Shown: positions 17,081 through 26,380 of the stretch, piece by piece
Layout: the number at the start of each line of letters is the position of its first letter
Position numbering within the stretch: the first letter of the stretch is position 1
Source of the DNA: Candidatus Bathyarchaeota archaeon
GTDB lineage: Archaea > Thermoproteota > Bathyarchaeia > Bathyarchaeales > Bathyarchaeaceae
DNA length: 37,484 nucleotides
NCBI GenBank assembly: GCA_029882515.1
Contig: JAOUKN010000011.1
Span: 1 to 37,484 of the forward strand
Direction of reading: 5' to 3'
The notes under the pieces: generated by a model
Databases searched by the model: none
What the model was told of the DNA's origin: nothing
The model's input: the letters and a program-made list of their open reading frames with translations, nothing else
Position numbers and translations under genes: made by a program

Positions 17081-19399
17081 TCATGTTGTTGTCAGAGCGA
17101 AGTTGAGCATGGTCTGCTTCTCACCGTAATATGTCTCATCCTTCAGTCTTTCCTCAGTATATCCGAATGGACTCAGAATGTTTACTCCTGCCAAAATCAG
17201 CATATCCACATATTTTTCGGTATCAAAGCGAGTATCACTATTAACTAACTCAGCGACCTTCACACGGCTGTTTGGCCTCTTATTCTCTGCGCTAGTTATC
17301 AAGTATCGAACCGTTTGTCCTCCAGTCACTTCTATGCCCTCCTTTACCAACTGCTTAGCAGCTACGGCTTGGAAAACATCGTGAACATACCTGTCCGGAT
17401 GCATAGAAAGCCGCTTCGCAATAATCAGATCCAGCACGTCCACATCCTTTTCCCTCAGTTTCTCCACATAGCCTCTTAAAACGTCTATTGCCTGTGGAAT
17501 CCTCTTCACAAACGTGTCAGAGTTCTGAGCCCTCGCAAGAACCCTGATCATATCCATTTGAGCCCTCTTAATGAAGGGCGGCATGTCCCGCCTTACCGCC
17601 TCGATACCCCTTACCTTGATTTTCCCAGACTCAAACACTCCAAAATACCGGTTCAGAACAGGAACGCCCACATGCATTCTAGATGGCAGAAATACAACCC
17701 ATCGGTATCTACCTTCAACATTCAACTCCACCCCAATTTTCTTAGAAACTGCCTGACAAAGCTCAATATACTCCCTTGCAGAAGCCCCTTCCTTCTTAAG
17801 CCAAAGAGAATCAACAATCCCGTGAACTATTTCAAACCCTCTCTCCTCAGCCATACGCACAGTCCTCAACAAGACCTCTCTCGCAAAAGCACAAACCGCA
17901 ATGTGGGCGTCAACCTTACCAAAACGAGCATTCTTGTAACCTAGATAACCAAAACACGTCACCAAAATCCACTTCAAAGCATTCTGCCTACGATTGTAGA
18001 TCCGTCTTAACTTCAGGTCTTCAACCTCGTTTCTCAAACGCTTGTACGTAGCTCTTTTCCTCAGAACCATCCTTAAGGTCCTTGGCACGATACCTTCTCG
18101 CTTCTCGCACATATTGTAGCCAAGCTCTGGTACCCTCAACGTTGAATTTGGACAACATTTGCAAAGCACAGTTTCAGCCGAAACGTTCTGCTTCGCCATC
18201 AAAGTTGGATACATTGAAGAAAAGTCAACCTCAGTAACCCAATCATGGATGCCCATCTTCGGCTCAAAGATAAACCCTCCCCGGTCAGCCACCAAGAGTT
18301 CCCACGCCGACTTGAACACTTCAGGCTCCCTCTTCTTCCACGGAATCAAAATGCCATCCTTAGTAGCCTGATAAAGCTGCAAAGAAGACATAATCGTTCC
18401 AATAGAAGCCCTCGCAGCTCTATGTGTAGGAACCCTACAAGTCCTCGAAACCTCAATCAACCCATCTAACCCAGAAGCAGAATAGATGAACGTGTTCTCC
18501 TTATCCACATGGATTCGTCCATACAACCTTCGCATAGGCGCCTTAAAGTAAACCCTTCCATACGAGAAAAAAGTCATGCCTCGCTTCTTCTTAGCCCTAA
18601 GCGGAACATGTTCCCTTCCCAGAACAAGTCTGCTGAGAACTCCATTCACCAGTGCCCTATGAGCAAGATACGGAAAAAGAAACGAATCTCCACCTCGGGT
18701 GAAGATAATATCAGGATCCTTCTCTCTGATCACATCAACCATCATGAGTATCTTTTCCTCTTCATCTTCATTATCAATAACAATGTCTTCGCCATTCTCT
18801 TCGAGAATGATGGAGCCAATCGGATCGTTGAAGTTAGGGATAGGCCTATCTGTGGCTATTTCTAGGTGCAACGACAATAGACGAAGAGGAGGGAGATCAT
18901 AGTCCACGCTTTCTACCGAGTCCAACAACCAGTAAGCAAGCCTGTCACCCTGAACTATGACTCCCATAAAAGCAAGCGGAAAAATGTCCCTATCATAAAA
19001 ATAAGCCTGTGCATCTGGAACGTCCACGTTATGTAGCCGAAACTTCTGATATCCTCCAAATCTTAGCAACTTTCGGGCGAAGTAAGGAATCCTGCGACAA
19101 TCCGTTGTAGTAATTTCTAGCACTTTTGATCTCTTGTTTTCCATGAAATCAGCATATTTTTCAACATAACGCCATTTAGCCACCGATTTGCTTGTGCCAA
19201 GGCGTTTGGTCAACTTGGAAAGATCAGATATTTTAGCCGAAACATAGATTTTGGGCTGAAACTTGTCCACGAGCTTTATGCGTTCGCCGTTCTCAGATAT
19301 GATCCAAACTGTCATTTCGCCCGGATTGGAAGGATATACGTCGAGCAGCCAGCCACAAATCGGCTTAAGACTGGCCAAGTCGTTTCTCCAGCCTGTCAA
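17081..19399 (-). CDS. B-family DNA polymerase, PolB2/Dpo2-like, with degraded 3'-5' exonuclease motifs
   Basis: Pol motif A VTEVDFSSMYPTLMAK; motif B RRQNALKWILVTCFGYLGYKNARFGK; motif C EIVHGIVDSLWLK. Exo I reads LSLHLEIAT where DxE is expected. Exo II reads TRGGDSFLFPYL where NxxxFDxPYL is expected. Confidence 0.9.
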   Translation of the reverse strand: MTGWRNDLASLKPICGWLLDVYPSNPGEMTVWIISENGERIKLVDKFQPKIYVSAKISDLSKLTKRLGTSKSVAKWRYVEKYADFMENKRSKVLEITTTDCRRIPYFARKLLRFGGYQKFRLHNVDVPDAQAYFYDRDIFPLAFMGVIVQGDRLAYWLLDSVESVDYDLPPLRLLSLHLEIATDRPIPNFNDPIGSIILEENGEDIVIDNEDEEEKILMMVDVIREKDPDIIFTRGGDSFLFPYLAHRALVNGVLSRLVLGREHVPLRAKKKRGMTFFSYGRVYFKAPMRRLYGRIHVDKENTFIYSASGLDGLIEVSRTCRVPTHRAARASIGTIMSSLQLYQATKDGILIPWKKREPEVFKSAWELLVADRGGFIFEPKMGIHDWVTEVDFSSMYPTLMAKQNVSAETVLCKCCPNSTLRVPELGYNMCEKREGIVPRTLRMVLRKRATYKRLRNEVEDLKLRRIYNRRQNALKWILVTCFGYLGYKNARFGKVDAHIAVCAFAREVLLRTVRMAEERGFEIVHGIVDSLWLKKEGASAREYIELCQAVSKKIGVELNVEGRYRWVVFLPSRMHVGVPVLNRYFGVFESGKIKVRGIEAVRRDMPPFIKRAQMDMIRVLARAQNSDTFVKRIPQAIDVLRGYVEKLREKDVDVLDLIIAKRLSMHPDRYVHDVFQAVAAKQLVKEGIEVTGGQTVRYLITSAENKRPNSRVKVAELVNSDTRFDTEKYVDMLILAGVNILSPFGYTEERLKDETYYGEKQTMLNFALTTT

Positions 19400-19634
19400 G
19401 CCTCTCCTTGATCCCCGTTAACACCTTCTCTTGGTAAAGCAGAATCGACATGAACATTGCTTCAAGTAAAATCGGCCTCGTAGCCATGCTCCCAGCTGAT
19501 GCGAACATTCTGCAAGCATTCATCATACGATCAAAAGCCTCAGCGTCTTTTCCTCGCAACCCTTTCCTGAATCCCTTCCACCGCTCAACTTCTCTTTCCA
19601 ACGCGTGACGATATGAAGGAACAGTTCTTCCCAT
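19365..19634 (-). CDS. Small helical protein between the RadA-like ATPase and PolB2 genes
   Basis: 89 aa: MGRTVPSYRHALEREVERWKGFRKGLRGKDAEAFDRMMNACRMFASAGSMATRPILLEAMFMSILLYQEKVLTGIKERLDRLEKRLGQS. It overlaps the PolB start by 35 nt. Confidence 0.8.
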   Translation of the reverse strand: MGRTVPSYRHALEREVERWKGFRKGLRGKDAEAFDRMMNACRMFASAGSMATRPILLEAMFMSILLYQEKVLTGIKERLDRLEKRLGQS

Positions 19635-19638
19635 TCAT

Positions 19639-20376
19639 TTAGGTCTCCATAAACATGTCCATCGTGACCGCATTAGAAGGAAAATCAACAGCAAAAGGCT
19701 TAATGTTCGGATGATGCTCCAAAATGAACTTCAGAATACCCTTCGACTCCTTAAGGCTCACTACAACGTTTGCTCTTCCAAACAAAACCGCATCAAGAAA
19801 CAGACTTCTGTTAGAATAAAGCCGAGGGAAATATGAAGCAACAACGATGGCCTGCCTATTCAAAGCAAGTTCTGAAAGATACCGAGTCATTTTCATGAAG
19901 ATGTCTCTACCTTCTTTCTTAGGGACATCCCTATCCAAGAACAAATCAGTTATGTCCGAAACGATCACAAGTCTGGATCTGTACCCTTTCAAAGTTTCCT
20001 CCAACTTCTCAAAGATCAACGCCGTCAACTGATATGCTGTGAACGCTCTAGAAACCAAAATCTTCTCAAGCACAGATTTTGGCTCCAAACCATATTCTCG
20101 GGCTATCGACGAAACACCGTATGGATCAAAAGTGTTCCCACCATCAATGTAAACCACCCTTGAGTTCAGTCCTCCCTTTCTGAGAGGCAACTGACACCGG
20201 ACACTCAAAAGAAACAACAATGTCCTGCAGATAGGATGCCCAAACAAAACCGCAAAGTCACCCCTCTGAAAACCTAGAAAAACGTCATCTACTTTCGGGA
20301 TTCCAAGCGCTAACACTCTGTCAGATTTTCTGGACAAAGCAGTCACGTCATGCAAGTGGTATGAAAAAAAATTCAA
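19639..20376 (-). CDS. RadA/RecA-superfamily ATPase paralog with degenerate Walker A
   Basis: LGIPKVDDVFLGFQRGDFAVLFGHPICRTLLFLLSVRCQLPLRKGGLNSRVVYIDGGNTFDPYGVSSIAREYGLEP and RLVIVSDITDLF align by eye with RadA (GEYGVGKTQ..., [19 protein letters not shown]), but GKT is replaced by CRT. Confidence 0.8.
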   Translation of the reverse strand: MNFFSYHLHDVTALSRKSDRVLALGIPKVDDVFLGFQRGDFAVLFGHPICRTLLFLLSVRCQLPLRKGGLNSRVVYIDGGNTFDPYGVSSIAREYGLEPKSVLEKILVSRAFTAYQLTALIFEKLEETLKGYRSRLVIVSDITDLFLDRDVPKKEGRDIFMKMTRYLSELALNRQAIVVASYFPRLYSNRSLFLDAVLFGRANVVVSLKESKGILKFILEHHPNIKPFAVDFPSNAVTMDMFMET

Positions 20377-20494
20377 CTCATAAGCATTTAGTAGAAGAAT
20401 GTTCTACAACCCTAGAGACTCGTAAGTGAAAATAAAACCGATATGTGAATCTGTTCCGTGCTACCACTACGAAATTCCAGTTGAAGTTCTTTAG

Positions 20495-21442
20495 TTACTC
20501 TTGAACGTCTTCAATTCCCTTTTCTGTGATTTTGAATCGTGTACTGCTTTCGGGTAAGTATGGGGAGTCAATAACCTTGGCTATCCTTGTTCCCTTGCTT
20601 CCTTTTCTAAGATAAACCCGATGCGTGCAGGCATGAGCCATGATGTGTCCACCTGCTGGTTTGTTGGGGTCTCCAAAAAATTGGGCGGGGTTTGCCTGAA
20701 CCTGATTTGTCACTATCACAGGCAAGTTAAAGGCTTCGGTCAATCTCAGCAGCTTGTGGAGTAGGTTGTTAAGTTTTTGTTGGCGTTCGGACAGATGTTC
20801 TCTACCCACATATTCGCTTCTGAAGTGGCCGATCATTGAGTCCACAATGATGAGTTTTACGTTGTTCTCTGGACAGAACTTGAAAAGACTGTCTATCAAT
20901 AAACATTGATGGCTGCTGTTGTAGGCCCGTGCGAGAAAGATGTTTCCTAAGGTCTTGTGGGGATCACTCCCTAATGCGTTGGCTATTTCAAATATACGTT
21001 CCGGTATGAACGTGCCTTCCGTGTCGATATACACCACGTTTCCGTTCAATCCTCTCTTCTCTGCTGGAAGCTGGGCCATAACGCAGAGCATCAGACAGAT
21101 TTGTGTTTTGCCTACACCGTATTCGCCAATGAACTCAGTCATAGCTTGAGTTTCGATTCCTCCTCCCAAAAGCTCGTCTAAGTTCTTGGAGCCTGTGGAA
21201 CATTTTAGCATGTTTTGCCTTCTTTTCCAGAGTTCCTCAGCTGTGATAAAGTCAACATCGAGAGATTTTCTAGCCGCTGCAGCAATCTTTATGATCGTGT
21301 TGAACCCTATTGCGGTTTTTTCCGCTATCTCTCTAGGTGGAGTTACAGCAATTGCTTCAACGGTGGTTATTCCAGCCGAGCGAAGCTTGCTGGCTATGGC
21401 AGGCCCAACGCCTTCAAGGGTTGCAGGATCATCATACTTCAT
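20495..21442 (-). CDS. radA: DNA repair and recombination protein RadA
   Basis: HhH N-terminus [24 protein letters not shown], Walker [30 protein letters not shown], Walker [23 protein letters not shown]2-region [26 protein letters not shown]. Confidence 0.96.
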
Positions 21443-21682
21443 GTAAACTTCACCTTCTACCGATTGGTCTATTCATTCGTTACATAGAGAGCATCCGAGC
21501 GTATTGGTATTAAAATCTGCGACCCAACGTATGATGATGGAGAGGAGGGAGATCATTGAAAGTACTAGTTGTTATTTCAAAACACATACCTTATCGTAAT
21601 TTCCATGGGGATAAGAAGTACGTTGAGAACCCTTTGATCTGATCTGAAACCACGGAGGCTGCACGCGCACCTTGGTAATCAA

Positions 21683-23080: not shown

Positions 23081-24130
23081 TTAGATTAAATCATCCAAGG
23101 CTGACTCTATAAAAACATCTTCTTCTTGTATTTTGGGATTGGGTTCATAAACTTTCAGGGTAATTCCGTCACACGACACGTCAAATAAAGCAGTGAACAG
23201 TGTACGAACCCTCATGCGTTTATCAATCCTCATAATGCTATATGGTTTGGCTTCTAAACTCGACAGAATATCAAGGGCCGTTTGAGGTGTTTTTTCTTTA
23301 ACGTCAGATAGTAACCTGGATCCTACCTTGTACCTTGATATGCTGGATCTCAGCAACGATTTACGCTTTTCAAGACTACTCATTTCTTCCGAAACATAAT
23401 GATTCGTGTGTAAATATTTATCCACGACTTCTGTTATGCAATACCTTTCAGAAGTCGTTTCAATGTTCATTGCTTCCTTTTCCTTTTGAGACACAACGTT
23501 AAAGCTCCCTCCAGAAGCTCTTTGTCGAAACAATGTCCTTTTGATTACCTCTTTTACGTTCTTCCCTTCCAGCTGGGATCGATCGATAAAATGACGTGGA
23601 CACCCCATTCTTATGTCAGGAGTAGGCATGGCGTTATTAGTTATGATCATACCATATGCGTTAAAAGCAAAAGAATTTCCAGGAATCATCCCTGGATAAC
23701 AAAAACTCATGAACGGTGTTCCAGCTTCGGGATAGACTTTTAGCAACTGGCAATCATTCAAGTTGTCTTTGGTATTATCTTCATTGTGAGCGAGTATCAT
23801 CCTTCCAGATTCTTTAAAGATTACTGTCGTACACGCCTTTCTTGGGAAATCATACTTGCAATTTATCAGCAAGATATCTGTTAAACTCGAAATAGAACCT
23901 TCGGCGATTCCTCTAATCTCCTCCATATACTGAGGAAACCACCTTTCGCCATATTCCATCCATTTTTGAAGTCTCGGAGTTTTCTTTTCGACCGTTCTCA
24001 ACAACTTAAGCCGTTTGCTCTTTTCCAAAAAATCGGCAATCTGAAGTCTAAACCGTTTCCCAATTTCAAAACCGATCTCGAAGTTATTTCCACTGACTGA
24101 GTAAACAGGAAGCACCGAGTTCTTTGTCAT
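23081..24130 (-). CDS. C45-type acyl-CoA:6-aminopenicillanate acyltransferase-like Ntn hydrolase
   Basis: IRGIAEGSISSLTDILLINCKYDFPRKACTTVIFKESGRMILAHNEDN...; GMIPGNSFAFNAYGMIITNNAM; NVVSQKEKEAMNIETT. Confidence 0.8.
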   Translation of the reverse strand: MTKNSVLPVYSVSGNNFEIGFEIGKRFRLQIADFLEKSKRLKLLRTVEKKTPRLQKWMEYGERWFPQYMEEIRGIAEGSISSLTDILLINCKYDFPRKACTTVIFKESGRMILAHNEDNTKDNLNDCQLLKVYPEAGTPFMSFCYPGMIPGNSFAFNAYGMIITNNAMPTPDIRMGCPRHFIDRSQLEGKNVKEVIKRTLFRQRASGGSFNVVSQKEKEAMNIETTSERYCITEVVDKYLHTNHYVSEEMSSLEKRKSLLRSSISRYKVGSRLLSDVKEKTPQTALDILSSLEAKPYSIMRIDKRMRVRTLFTALFDVSCDGITLKVYEPNPKIQEEDVFIESALDDLI

Positions 24131-24275
24131 GTTAATTCTCTATTTAAATAGGACACTTTAAGCATTGTGATAAACATAATTGTATGTGCATACAAATTTC
24201 GAAAGTGCTTTCAAGTGCCAGAGTCCGATATTCTATTTTTAATTCCGACGCCAAAGCTCTTATGAGGACAACTAG

Positions 24276-25205
24276 ATGACACGATACCTCATCGGAGCAG
24301 GAGGATGGGCATATTTTCAAGTCCCAAACATACATCCTCTTGTAGCCTATTCAAAAGTATTCAACTTTGTAGAGGTGAACTCAACCTTCTACGAAATGCC
24401 AAGCCTCAAACTAGTAGAATCTTGGCGTAGGCTAGTACCACCAGACTTTAAGTTCGCGGTAAGATGCATCAAAGTGCTCACTCACAAACATAAGTTCCAA
24501 CTAGTCCCAGAAGCCTGTGAAGCTCTGGAAAAGATGATCACGATCTGCAACACCTTAAAAGCAGAGATTCTGCACCTACAAACTCCACCAACATTTCACA
24601 CTACAAAGCCCAACATTAAACTCATACGCAACTTCTTTTCAACAATGGACTTGGGCATCAGAGTCGCTCTAGAGATAAGAGGCGCCAAACGACGCTTAAA
24701 CTCAGACCTCGTGGAAACAATGCGAGATTACAACATCATTCATTGTGTCGACCTCTCCAAAGACGAGGAACCTGCGTACAAGTCTGACAGCCTGTATTCA
24801 AGACTTTTTGGTAAGGGTCCTCACAACATCTACCAACCGACGGATCAGGAACTGAGGAAAATTGACAGAAAAGCCTCCAAAGCTGGTCACAAAACAGTAG
24901 CTGTATCCTTTCACTATGTCAGGATGTATAAAGACGCTGCCCGATTTAAAATATTCAAGCAGACTGGAAAATTCCCCATGGTCACGAAGTCTACGGGCGC
25001 AAGTTCACTCACTGAAGTTCTTCGAGAGGATGCCACGTTTCCAAGCAGCAGGAAAGAACTAATTCGGCATCAAGGATGGAAACTCGTCGACTTGACAAAA
25101 GATAAGAGAGCCCACGCCTCCTCGATGCTCCAGAAACTTCCCGAAAAAACGTATAATAGCATCAAAGACGTAGTGCAGACGCTGGAGGCGCTAAACCCAT
25201 GGTGA
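24276..25205 (+). CDS. DUF72 (YecE-like, TIM-barrel) protein
   Basis: RYLIGAGGWAYF..., YSKVFNFVEVNSTFYEMPSLKLVESWRRLVPPDFKFAVRCIKVLTH. Confidence 0.88.
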   Translation: MTRYLIGAGGWAYFQVPNIHPLVAYSKVFNFVEVNSTFYEMPSLKLVESWRRLVPPDFKFAVRCIKVLTHKHKFQLVPEACEALEKMITICNTLKAEILHLQTPPTFHTTKPNIKLIRNFFSTMDLGIRVALEIRGAKRRLNSDLVETMRDYNIIHCVDLSKDEEPAYKSDSLYSRLFGKGPHNIYQPTDQELRKIDRKASKAGHKTVAVSFHYVRMYKDAARFKIFKQTGKFPMVTKSTGASSLTEVLREDATFPSSRKELIRHQGWKLVDLTKDKRAHASSMLQKLPEKTYNSIKDVVQTLEALNPW

Positions 25206-26380
25206 AAACATTGAACAACATTCTCTTCGGAACGTCGGGCTGGAGTTACAGAGACTGGATAGGACCGTTCTACAAGAAGGGAGAAAAGAGCATGTTGAGG
25301 GCGCACTCGAAGGTTTTCAAGACTGTGGAGATAGATTCCACGTTCTACGCTTATCCTTCTAAAGGAACGGTTATGGGATGGGTAAGATACTCTCCAGAAG
25401 AATATGTGTTCTCTGCCAAGCTTCCCAAAGTGATAACTCATGAAAAAATGCTTAATTTGGAGGAAGGCGTTGAGCGTGATCTCAATCGTTTCTGCGATTT
25501 GATTCGACCTCTTTTGTTGAACGGCAAACTTGGATGTCTGCTTATACAGCTTCCTCCGAAATATGCGTTTGATCTGGACCATTTGGATAGGTTCTTCCGA
25601 ATCCTTCCCGCGGAGTTTAGGTTTGCTGTAGAGTTTCGGCATGCGTCATGGATGAGAGACGACACTTGGAAATTATTGAAGAAGAATGGGGTCGCATACA
25701 CGATCGTAGATGAACCTCTGTTACCTCCTGAGGTGCAAGTTACCTCTGACTTTGCGTATATCAGATGGCATGGACATGGAACGAGACCTTGGTTCAACTA
25801 CCGTTACGGTATCGAAGAGTTGAAGCCTTGGGTACCAAAAGTGCGTAACCTAGCAAACAAAGTTAAGAAAGTATATGGTTATTTCAACAATCACTTTCAT
25901 GGCTATGCAGTTGAGAATTGCCTGCAAGTACTAGAAATGTTGGGCGCTTTAACCTCAGAGCAGGCCAAGGTCAAAGCAACCGTAGAGAATTACTTCGAAA
26001 TTCCAAGGAAGTTCAAGAAGCCAACCTTAGAAGCCTTCGCCGAAGCTAAGGAAATGACCTTCGAAAGCTTGCTCAGTACCTTTGTAGACGAGCCGAGGCT
26101 AAAGAGAGCGCGACGTATCAAAGATAAGGAGCTAACCATTCAAAAGGAAACACACAAGCAGATAGAAGCGCTGATAAGAGACTACCGCATAGAGATGGAT
26201 CTCGAAAATCATGTGATCCTACACGACTGTGCAGACTGGAGCAGAGTATTACCGAGCAAACGATTCTGTAAACACATTGGCAAGCTACTACTATCAATGG
26301 ATAAGGAAAAAGCCTTGAACATCCTAAAACAGATTTACGCAAACAAAGAAAAATGGGAATTCAAGCCCTACATAGAGTAG
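25199..26380 (+). CDS. DUF72 (YecE-like) protein with extra C-terminal domain
   Basis: ILFGTSGWSYRDWIGPFYKKGEKSMLRAHSKVFKTVEIDSTFYAYPSKGTVMGWVRYSPEEYVFSAKLPKVITHEK; FAYIRWHGHGTRPWFNYRYG; YGYFNNHFHGYAVEN. Overlaps the upstream gene by 7 nt (ATGGTGA). Confidence 0.92.
   Translation: MVKTLNNILFGTSGWSYRDWIGPFYKKGEKSMLRAHSKVFKTVEIDSTFYAYPSKGTVMGWVRYSPEEYVFSAKLPKVITHEKMLNLEEGVERDLNRFCDLIRPLLLNGKLGCLLIQLPPKYAFDLDHLDRFFRILPAEFRFAVEFRHASWMRDDTWKLLKKNGVAYTIVDEPLLPPEVQVTSDFAYIRWHGHGTRPWFNYRYGIEELKPWVPKVRNLANKVKKVYGYFNNHFHGYAVENCLQVLEMLGALTSEQAKVKATVENYFEIPRKFKKPTLEAFAEAKEMTFESLLSTFVDEPRLKRARRIKDKELTIQKETHKQIEALIRDYRIEMDLENHVILHDCADWSRVLPSKRFCKHIGKLLLSMDKEKALNILKQIYANKEKWEFKPYIE

Follow-up and report, generated by a model that had tools for sequence, protein, structure and literature searches.

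What role is left to a RadA-like protein that appears to have lost its ATPase? The question is raised by a gene in the window, the whole stretch of 37,484 nucleotides of bathyarchaeal DNA that was analysed. A first-pass annotation had read this gene as an ATPase-dead paralog with a RadA scaffold, lying next to an active radA gene, and had proposed a structural or recruiting role, possibly through binding to RadA filaments. We find that the gene is the iRadA of the published iRadA-PPB2-PolB2 operon, a new case of a known system, and that its product very probably serves the PolB2 translesion mutasome as a non-catalytic subunit of RadA fold.

19639 to 20376, minus strand: iRadA, an ATPase-dead RadA-fold protein (245 aa from the listed TTG start, which is uncertain; assigned by Pfam, alignment and AlphaFold)

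The predicted scaffold is borne out by an open reading frame at these positions that matches the Pfam Rad51 model with 65.7 bits (E 4.9e-18; cut-off 22) and finds its best PDB sequence matches in RadA and RAD51. The NCBIfam models that match it are RadA, RAD51 and DMC1. Similarly, Foldseek searches with the AlphaFold model (mean pLDDT 90.1, both ends disordered) rank RAD51 and RadA first. The protein might instead be a RadB or a KaiC/ImuA-like RecA-fold protein that is not derived from RadA, given that RadB likewise lacks the N-terminal domain and that bathyarchaeal RadB-like proteins give a significant profile-profile match (E 2.6e-14). However, the same kind of comparison, suggested at the outset as a check, places RadA nearer (E 2.5e-22). 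An NCBIfam search at E 0.1 returned neither a RadB nor an ImuA (ImuA_translesion) match, and the genome holds a separate gene of the RadB-like group (C106) that keeps Walker A. A RadB should match RadB profiles better than RadA profiles and carry Walker A, and iRadA does neither. On the NCBIfam and profile comparisons we reject a RadB or ImuA assignment as highly improbable.

The state of the active site was read from a joint alignment in which iRadA was set against the adjacent RadA and some 30 further RadA/RadB sequences. Specifically, Walker A changes from GEYGVGKTQ in RadA to GHPI--CRT in iRadA, the catalytic Glu is replaced by Gly (DTEGTF to DGGNTF), and the Walker B Asp is replaced by Ser (LIIVDS to LVIVSD). 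Thus, the loss of the P-loop and of the catalytic Glu noted in the first-pass annotation is real, and the protein is ATPase-dead as far as its sequence can be read. The FxxA linker/polymerisation motif is also absent, and the region of the DNA-binding loop L2 is shorter by about 10 residues. As had been claimed, the N-terminal helical (HhH) domain is missing, both from the alignment and from the AlphaFold model, in which the core starts near residue 20. iRadA shares its core fold and best sequence match with active archaeal RadA/RAD51, but it lacks the Walker A, catalytic Glu, Walker B Asp, L2 length and FxxA by which an active RadA recombinase is recognised, as well as the HhH domain. For the RadA homolog of this operon, the absence of an ATPase site is already described (PMC4104785; PMC11791011), as are the missing N-terminal domain (PMC11791011) and the structural role that the annotation had anticipated (PMC4104785; PMC11791011).

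A degenerating radA duplicate without function could likewise show missing catalytic motifs and strong divergence from RadA. Against this, the active-site losses are common to all bathyarchaeal iRadAs compared, with relatives down to about 25-30% identity, and thus are not sequencing errors. Identical losses recur across archaeal classes, together with invariant motifs and a conserved operon, and dN/dS against six relatives is 0.16-0.26, indicating purifying selection and not the decay of a pseudogene. Conservation and dN/dS rule out both a pseudogene and a sequencing error, and we give a functionless duplicate virtually no chance of being correct.

The listed TTG start (region 20360-20395) adjoins a conserved TATA-like CTTATGAG. 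Because residues 1-14 also have pLDDT values below 50 in the AlphaFold model, the real start is probably downstream, and may lie about 7-13 codons from the listed TTG. Within the protein, the best-conserved columns are DGGN (78-81) and SRAFTAYQ (109-116), and the former P-loop columns are variable. SRAFTAYQ corresponds in the alignment to the part of RadA with the protomer-protomer (oligomerisation) pocket, as that pocket is placed by RAD51 structures. These conserved residues fit the published model, in which PolB2 docks on iRadA.

The two genes that follow iRadA give this docking role its context.

19365 to 19634, minus strand: PPB2 (arCOG07300-like), 89 aa, 4 nt after iRadA; starts MGRTVPSYR, with Arg3 and Arg9 kept

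17081 to 19399, minus strand: PolB2, a family B polymerase of 772 aa, overlapping the PPB2 ORF

The MGRT start of the 89-aa gene is the PPB2 signature, and M1, G2, T4 and R9 are invariant across 23 homologs. The PPB2 profile match has an E value of 3.7e-42, and matches are confined to operon genomes except for two partial ones in a single genome (G051). There, two PPB2-like genes (C15 and C38) lack the N-terminal arm, the profile match running from position 11, and no iRadA-level match was found. PolB2 keeps Asp381 of motif A, Lys465 and, in motif C, Asp519; this last motif reads I-V-D (HGIVDS), with the first Asp replaced and the second kept. The exonuclease motifs are lost, with LEIA standing in place of an exonuclease motif, and the D(K/R) motif is kept as DK at 288-289. 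D381, K465, D519, Y269-G270 and D288 are invariant. The AlphaFold model (pLDDT 86.9) matches archaeal PolB structures with E 2e-45.

Makarova et al. 2014 (PMC4104785) described the iRadA-PPB2-PolB2 operon, for whose products Timinskas et al. 2025 (PMC11791011) built a model of a translesion mutasome, a heteropentamer. The marks of iRadA, namely a Rad51-family core, missing ATPase residues, no N-terminal domain and an operon with PPB2 and PolB2, are all found here. The operon, with its genes arranged as here, is present in about 22 of 61 relatives, all of them genomes of the same family and order. A profile scan of GTDB contigs, unlike a single-sequence scan with iRadA, which gave no match, yielded 80 named loci in Bathyarchaeota, Thermoplasmatota, Nitrososphaerota and other archaea. 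PolB2 adjoins iRadA, in the order iRadA-PPB2-PolB2, in 60 of the 80.

How might the complex be assembled? In the published models, iRadA partners with PolB2 and PPB2 as a trimer, and PolB2 docks via a motif resembling that of RadA oligomerisation (PMC11791011). By analogy with these AlphaFold models, a PolB2 loop (FFSYGR..DK) would enter the iRadA pocket that in RadA receives the next protomer, and the PPB2 MGRT arm would pack in the cleft between PolB2 and iRadA. iRadA would then serve as a scaffold gripped by its two partners and not as a recombinase. The interaction as proposed rests on in-silico models of other species. The mutasome would be made after DNA damage and would extend primers past lesions without proofreading; the PolB2 of Saccharolobus islandicus (Dpo2) is an active extender polymerase that lacks proofreading (PMC8764526). 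By the same analogy, the flexible iRadA C-terminal tail (TMDMFM) may touch PCNA; a C-terminal clamp-binding motif is expected in a fraction of iRadAs. The tail here, AVTMDMFM, keeps the hydrophobic positions of the clamp motif but not the Gln, and relatives have NQTTLDEY or QTKLLNYF; its degeneracy relative to NQTTLDEY is a point against the mutasome reading.

RecA-fold accessories of translesion polymerases are also found in the E. coli Pol V mutasome (UmuD'2C-RecA) and in bacterial ImuA-ImuB-DnaE2. In these systems the polymerase family differs, the RecA of Pol V is an active ATPase, and iRadA has no NCBIfam ImuA match.

The gene immediately before iRadA is also a radA.

20495 to 21442, minus strand: RadA2, a second, apparently active RadA, 118 nt before iRadA, identified by its motifs and its own clade

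RadA2 keeps the HhH domain, FITA, Walker A, Glu, Walker B and L2. The earlier description of an active radA neighbour therefore stands as regards its intact motifs and position. iRadA is not an isolated paralog but lies in an operon, and its radA neighbour is RadA2, not the housekeeping RadA. The latter, another full RadA, is encoded on contig C214 and is 53% identical to RadA2. RadA2 forms its own clade of 24 rows in the tree (bootstrap support 100/99), and orthologs occur in about 25 of the 61 genomes.

iRadA and RadA2 appear to share a promoter element.

20415 to 20433, minus strand: putative promoter element of iRadA, ATTTTCACTTACGAGTCTC, with a TATA-like TAAATGCTTATGAG after it; conserved in relatives

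21549 to 21563, minus strand: the radA2 copy of this element, ACTTTCAATGATCTC, lying upstream of the gene

The genome, of 2.2 Mb, has no perfect match to WYTTTCAYTTNNNAGTCTC other than the site at 20415-20433. In many iRadA promoters of Bathyarchaeia, ACTTTCA stands some 50-110 nt ahead of the start; TCTC often comes after it, and a TATA-like TAAATNCTTATGAG lies downstream of these. The putative element, A[CT]TTTCA-N4-12-TCTC, is common to iRadA operons, orphan iRadA genes and RadA2 (L105-L155, L076-L098). The 7-mer ACTTTCA was found in iRadA promoters first and then tested on RadA2 promoters, where it occurs in 12 of 22, versus 10 of the 264 ORFs that served as controls at the same loci (p 6e-10, a value that overstates the evidence because related genomes are not independent samples). 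The bipartite ACTTTCA...TCTC occurs upstream of 17/35 operon iRadAs, 6/15 orphan iRadAs, 10/22 RadA2 genes and 0/264 controls, counts that are descriptive because the pattern was written after both groups had been seen. Within the element lies the hexamer ANTTTC, to which the S. islandicus damage regulator Orc1-2 binds (PMC9738581). The Dpo2 operon and Orc1-2 response of that organism also share with this locus the I-x-D motif C of PolB2, although the putative bathyarchaeal element is longer and bipartite. That an Orc1-2-type protein binds it too would be a guess. Relative to the cited papers, this putative shared element, a computational finding, is new.

Two broader or competing readings of the promoter region were rejected. 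That the element marks all RadA genes was not borne out: ACTTTCA occurs in 4 of 40 housekeeping RadA promoters, a held-out set (p about 0.1), such that housekeeping RadA does not clearly share it. A perfect 6-bp inverted repeat before iRadA, GTAGAACATTCTTCTAC, was considered as an operator, but a single relative (L110) has a match to it. Scanning whole genomes for the strict form of the element returned too few matches to delimit a wider regulon.

On the other side of the locus lie two genes for DUF72 proteins.

24276 to 25205, plus strand: DUF72 protein gene, directly divergent from iRadA in relatives

25199 to 26380, plus strand: another DUF72 gene, which overlaps the first and is likewise linked in relatives

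This pair is directly divergent from iRadA in about half of bathyarchaeal operon loci, and DUF72 is an enriched neighbour of the operon (PMC11791011). In the window, a block of radA2, a saccharopine-dehydrogenase-like gene and an acyltransferase-like (AAT) gene stands between iRadA and the pair. The DUF72 promoter (24126-24275) contains a related sequence, GCTTTCAAGTGCCAGAGTCC, and a CTCTTATGAG box. Compared with published iRadA loci (arCOG07763/04294/08101; PMC4104785, PMC11791011), this one has the same ATPase-dead RadA fold without an N-terminal domain, the same iRadA-PPB2-PolB2 order, the DUF72 neighbour and a C-terminal tail resembling the clamp motif. It differs in its active second RadA directly upstream and in the degeneracy of the tail motif.

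Could iRadA instead act on RadA itself? As a mediator in the manner of Rad51 paralogs, it would cap or load active RadA filaments, with RadA2 as its dedicated partner. The two genes lie 118 nt apart on the same strand and have the promoter element in common, and the iRadA model matches RAD51 chains, some of them from paralog-capped filament structures. In addition, two Nitrososphaerota MAGs (L168 3-1706 and L170 4644-6681) have a different second RadA that ends just before iRadA on the same strand, such that the pairing arose at least twice. In these MAGs, iRadA has an N-terminal CxxC...CxxC (zinc-ribbon-like) extension and is followed by two PPB2 genes and PolB2. However, a second active RadA abuts iRadA in just 3 of about 110 loci examined, two of which are close relatives, and at none of the other bathyarchaeal loci examined are RadA2 and iRadA adjacent. 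Many genomes carry the two genes independently of each other, iRadA lacks the ATP-site and FxxA motifs, and PolB2 modelled with active RadA scored poorly (PMC11791011). No result of this analysis supports the proposed binding to RadA filaments. They are thus a less likely partner than PolB2 and PPB2, and we consider the mediator reading improbable. A functional link between iRadA and RadA2 may nevertheless exist, since their genes appear to share a promoter element. The identity of the adjacent radA as RadA2 and the independent Nitrososphaerota pairing, both computational findings, go beyond the cited papers.

Membership in the mutasome may not be the only use of iRadA. Six genomes of one bathyarchaeal family (G039, G045, G048, G054, G057 and G060) have iRadA with no detectable PPB2 and no close PolB2, their best polymerase matches being at the PolB1/PolB3 level; this computational result is likewise beyond the cited papers. 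Three of the six have two copies of iRadA. Several of these orphans keep the DGGN/AFTAYQ core, some have the promoter element, and a tail resembling the clamp motif is frequent, one protein ending in QTKLLNYFKNN. The retention of iRadA in these genomes suggests some use outside the complex with PolB2 and PPB2. A search for a conserved partner gene gave only a 70-aa upstream ORF, at 7 of 24 loci. Loci at which iRadA has no nearby PPB2 or PolB2 include L053, L055, L057, L059, L060 and L062-L065, and further L122, L126-L128, L132, L136, L140, L141, L143, L147, L149 and L153.

A more speculative proposal, which we consider unlikely, is that in Bathyarchaeia RadA2, as a dedicated second recombinase, and iRadA-PPB2-PolB2 form one damage regulon via ACTTTCA...TCTC. 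iRadA would connect RadA2 filaments with the mutasome, in a manner resembling the activation of Pol V by RecA filaments, and some lineages would later have lost the polymerase and kept iRadA.

In archaea, PolB2 mutasomes correspond to the error-prone polymerases of the SOS response. With a putative element common to the mutasome and a second recombinase, an Orc1-2-like damage response would reach beyond Sulfolobales, and the lineages that have iRadA alone would offer a natural experiment on its function in the absence of the polymerase.
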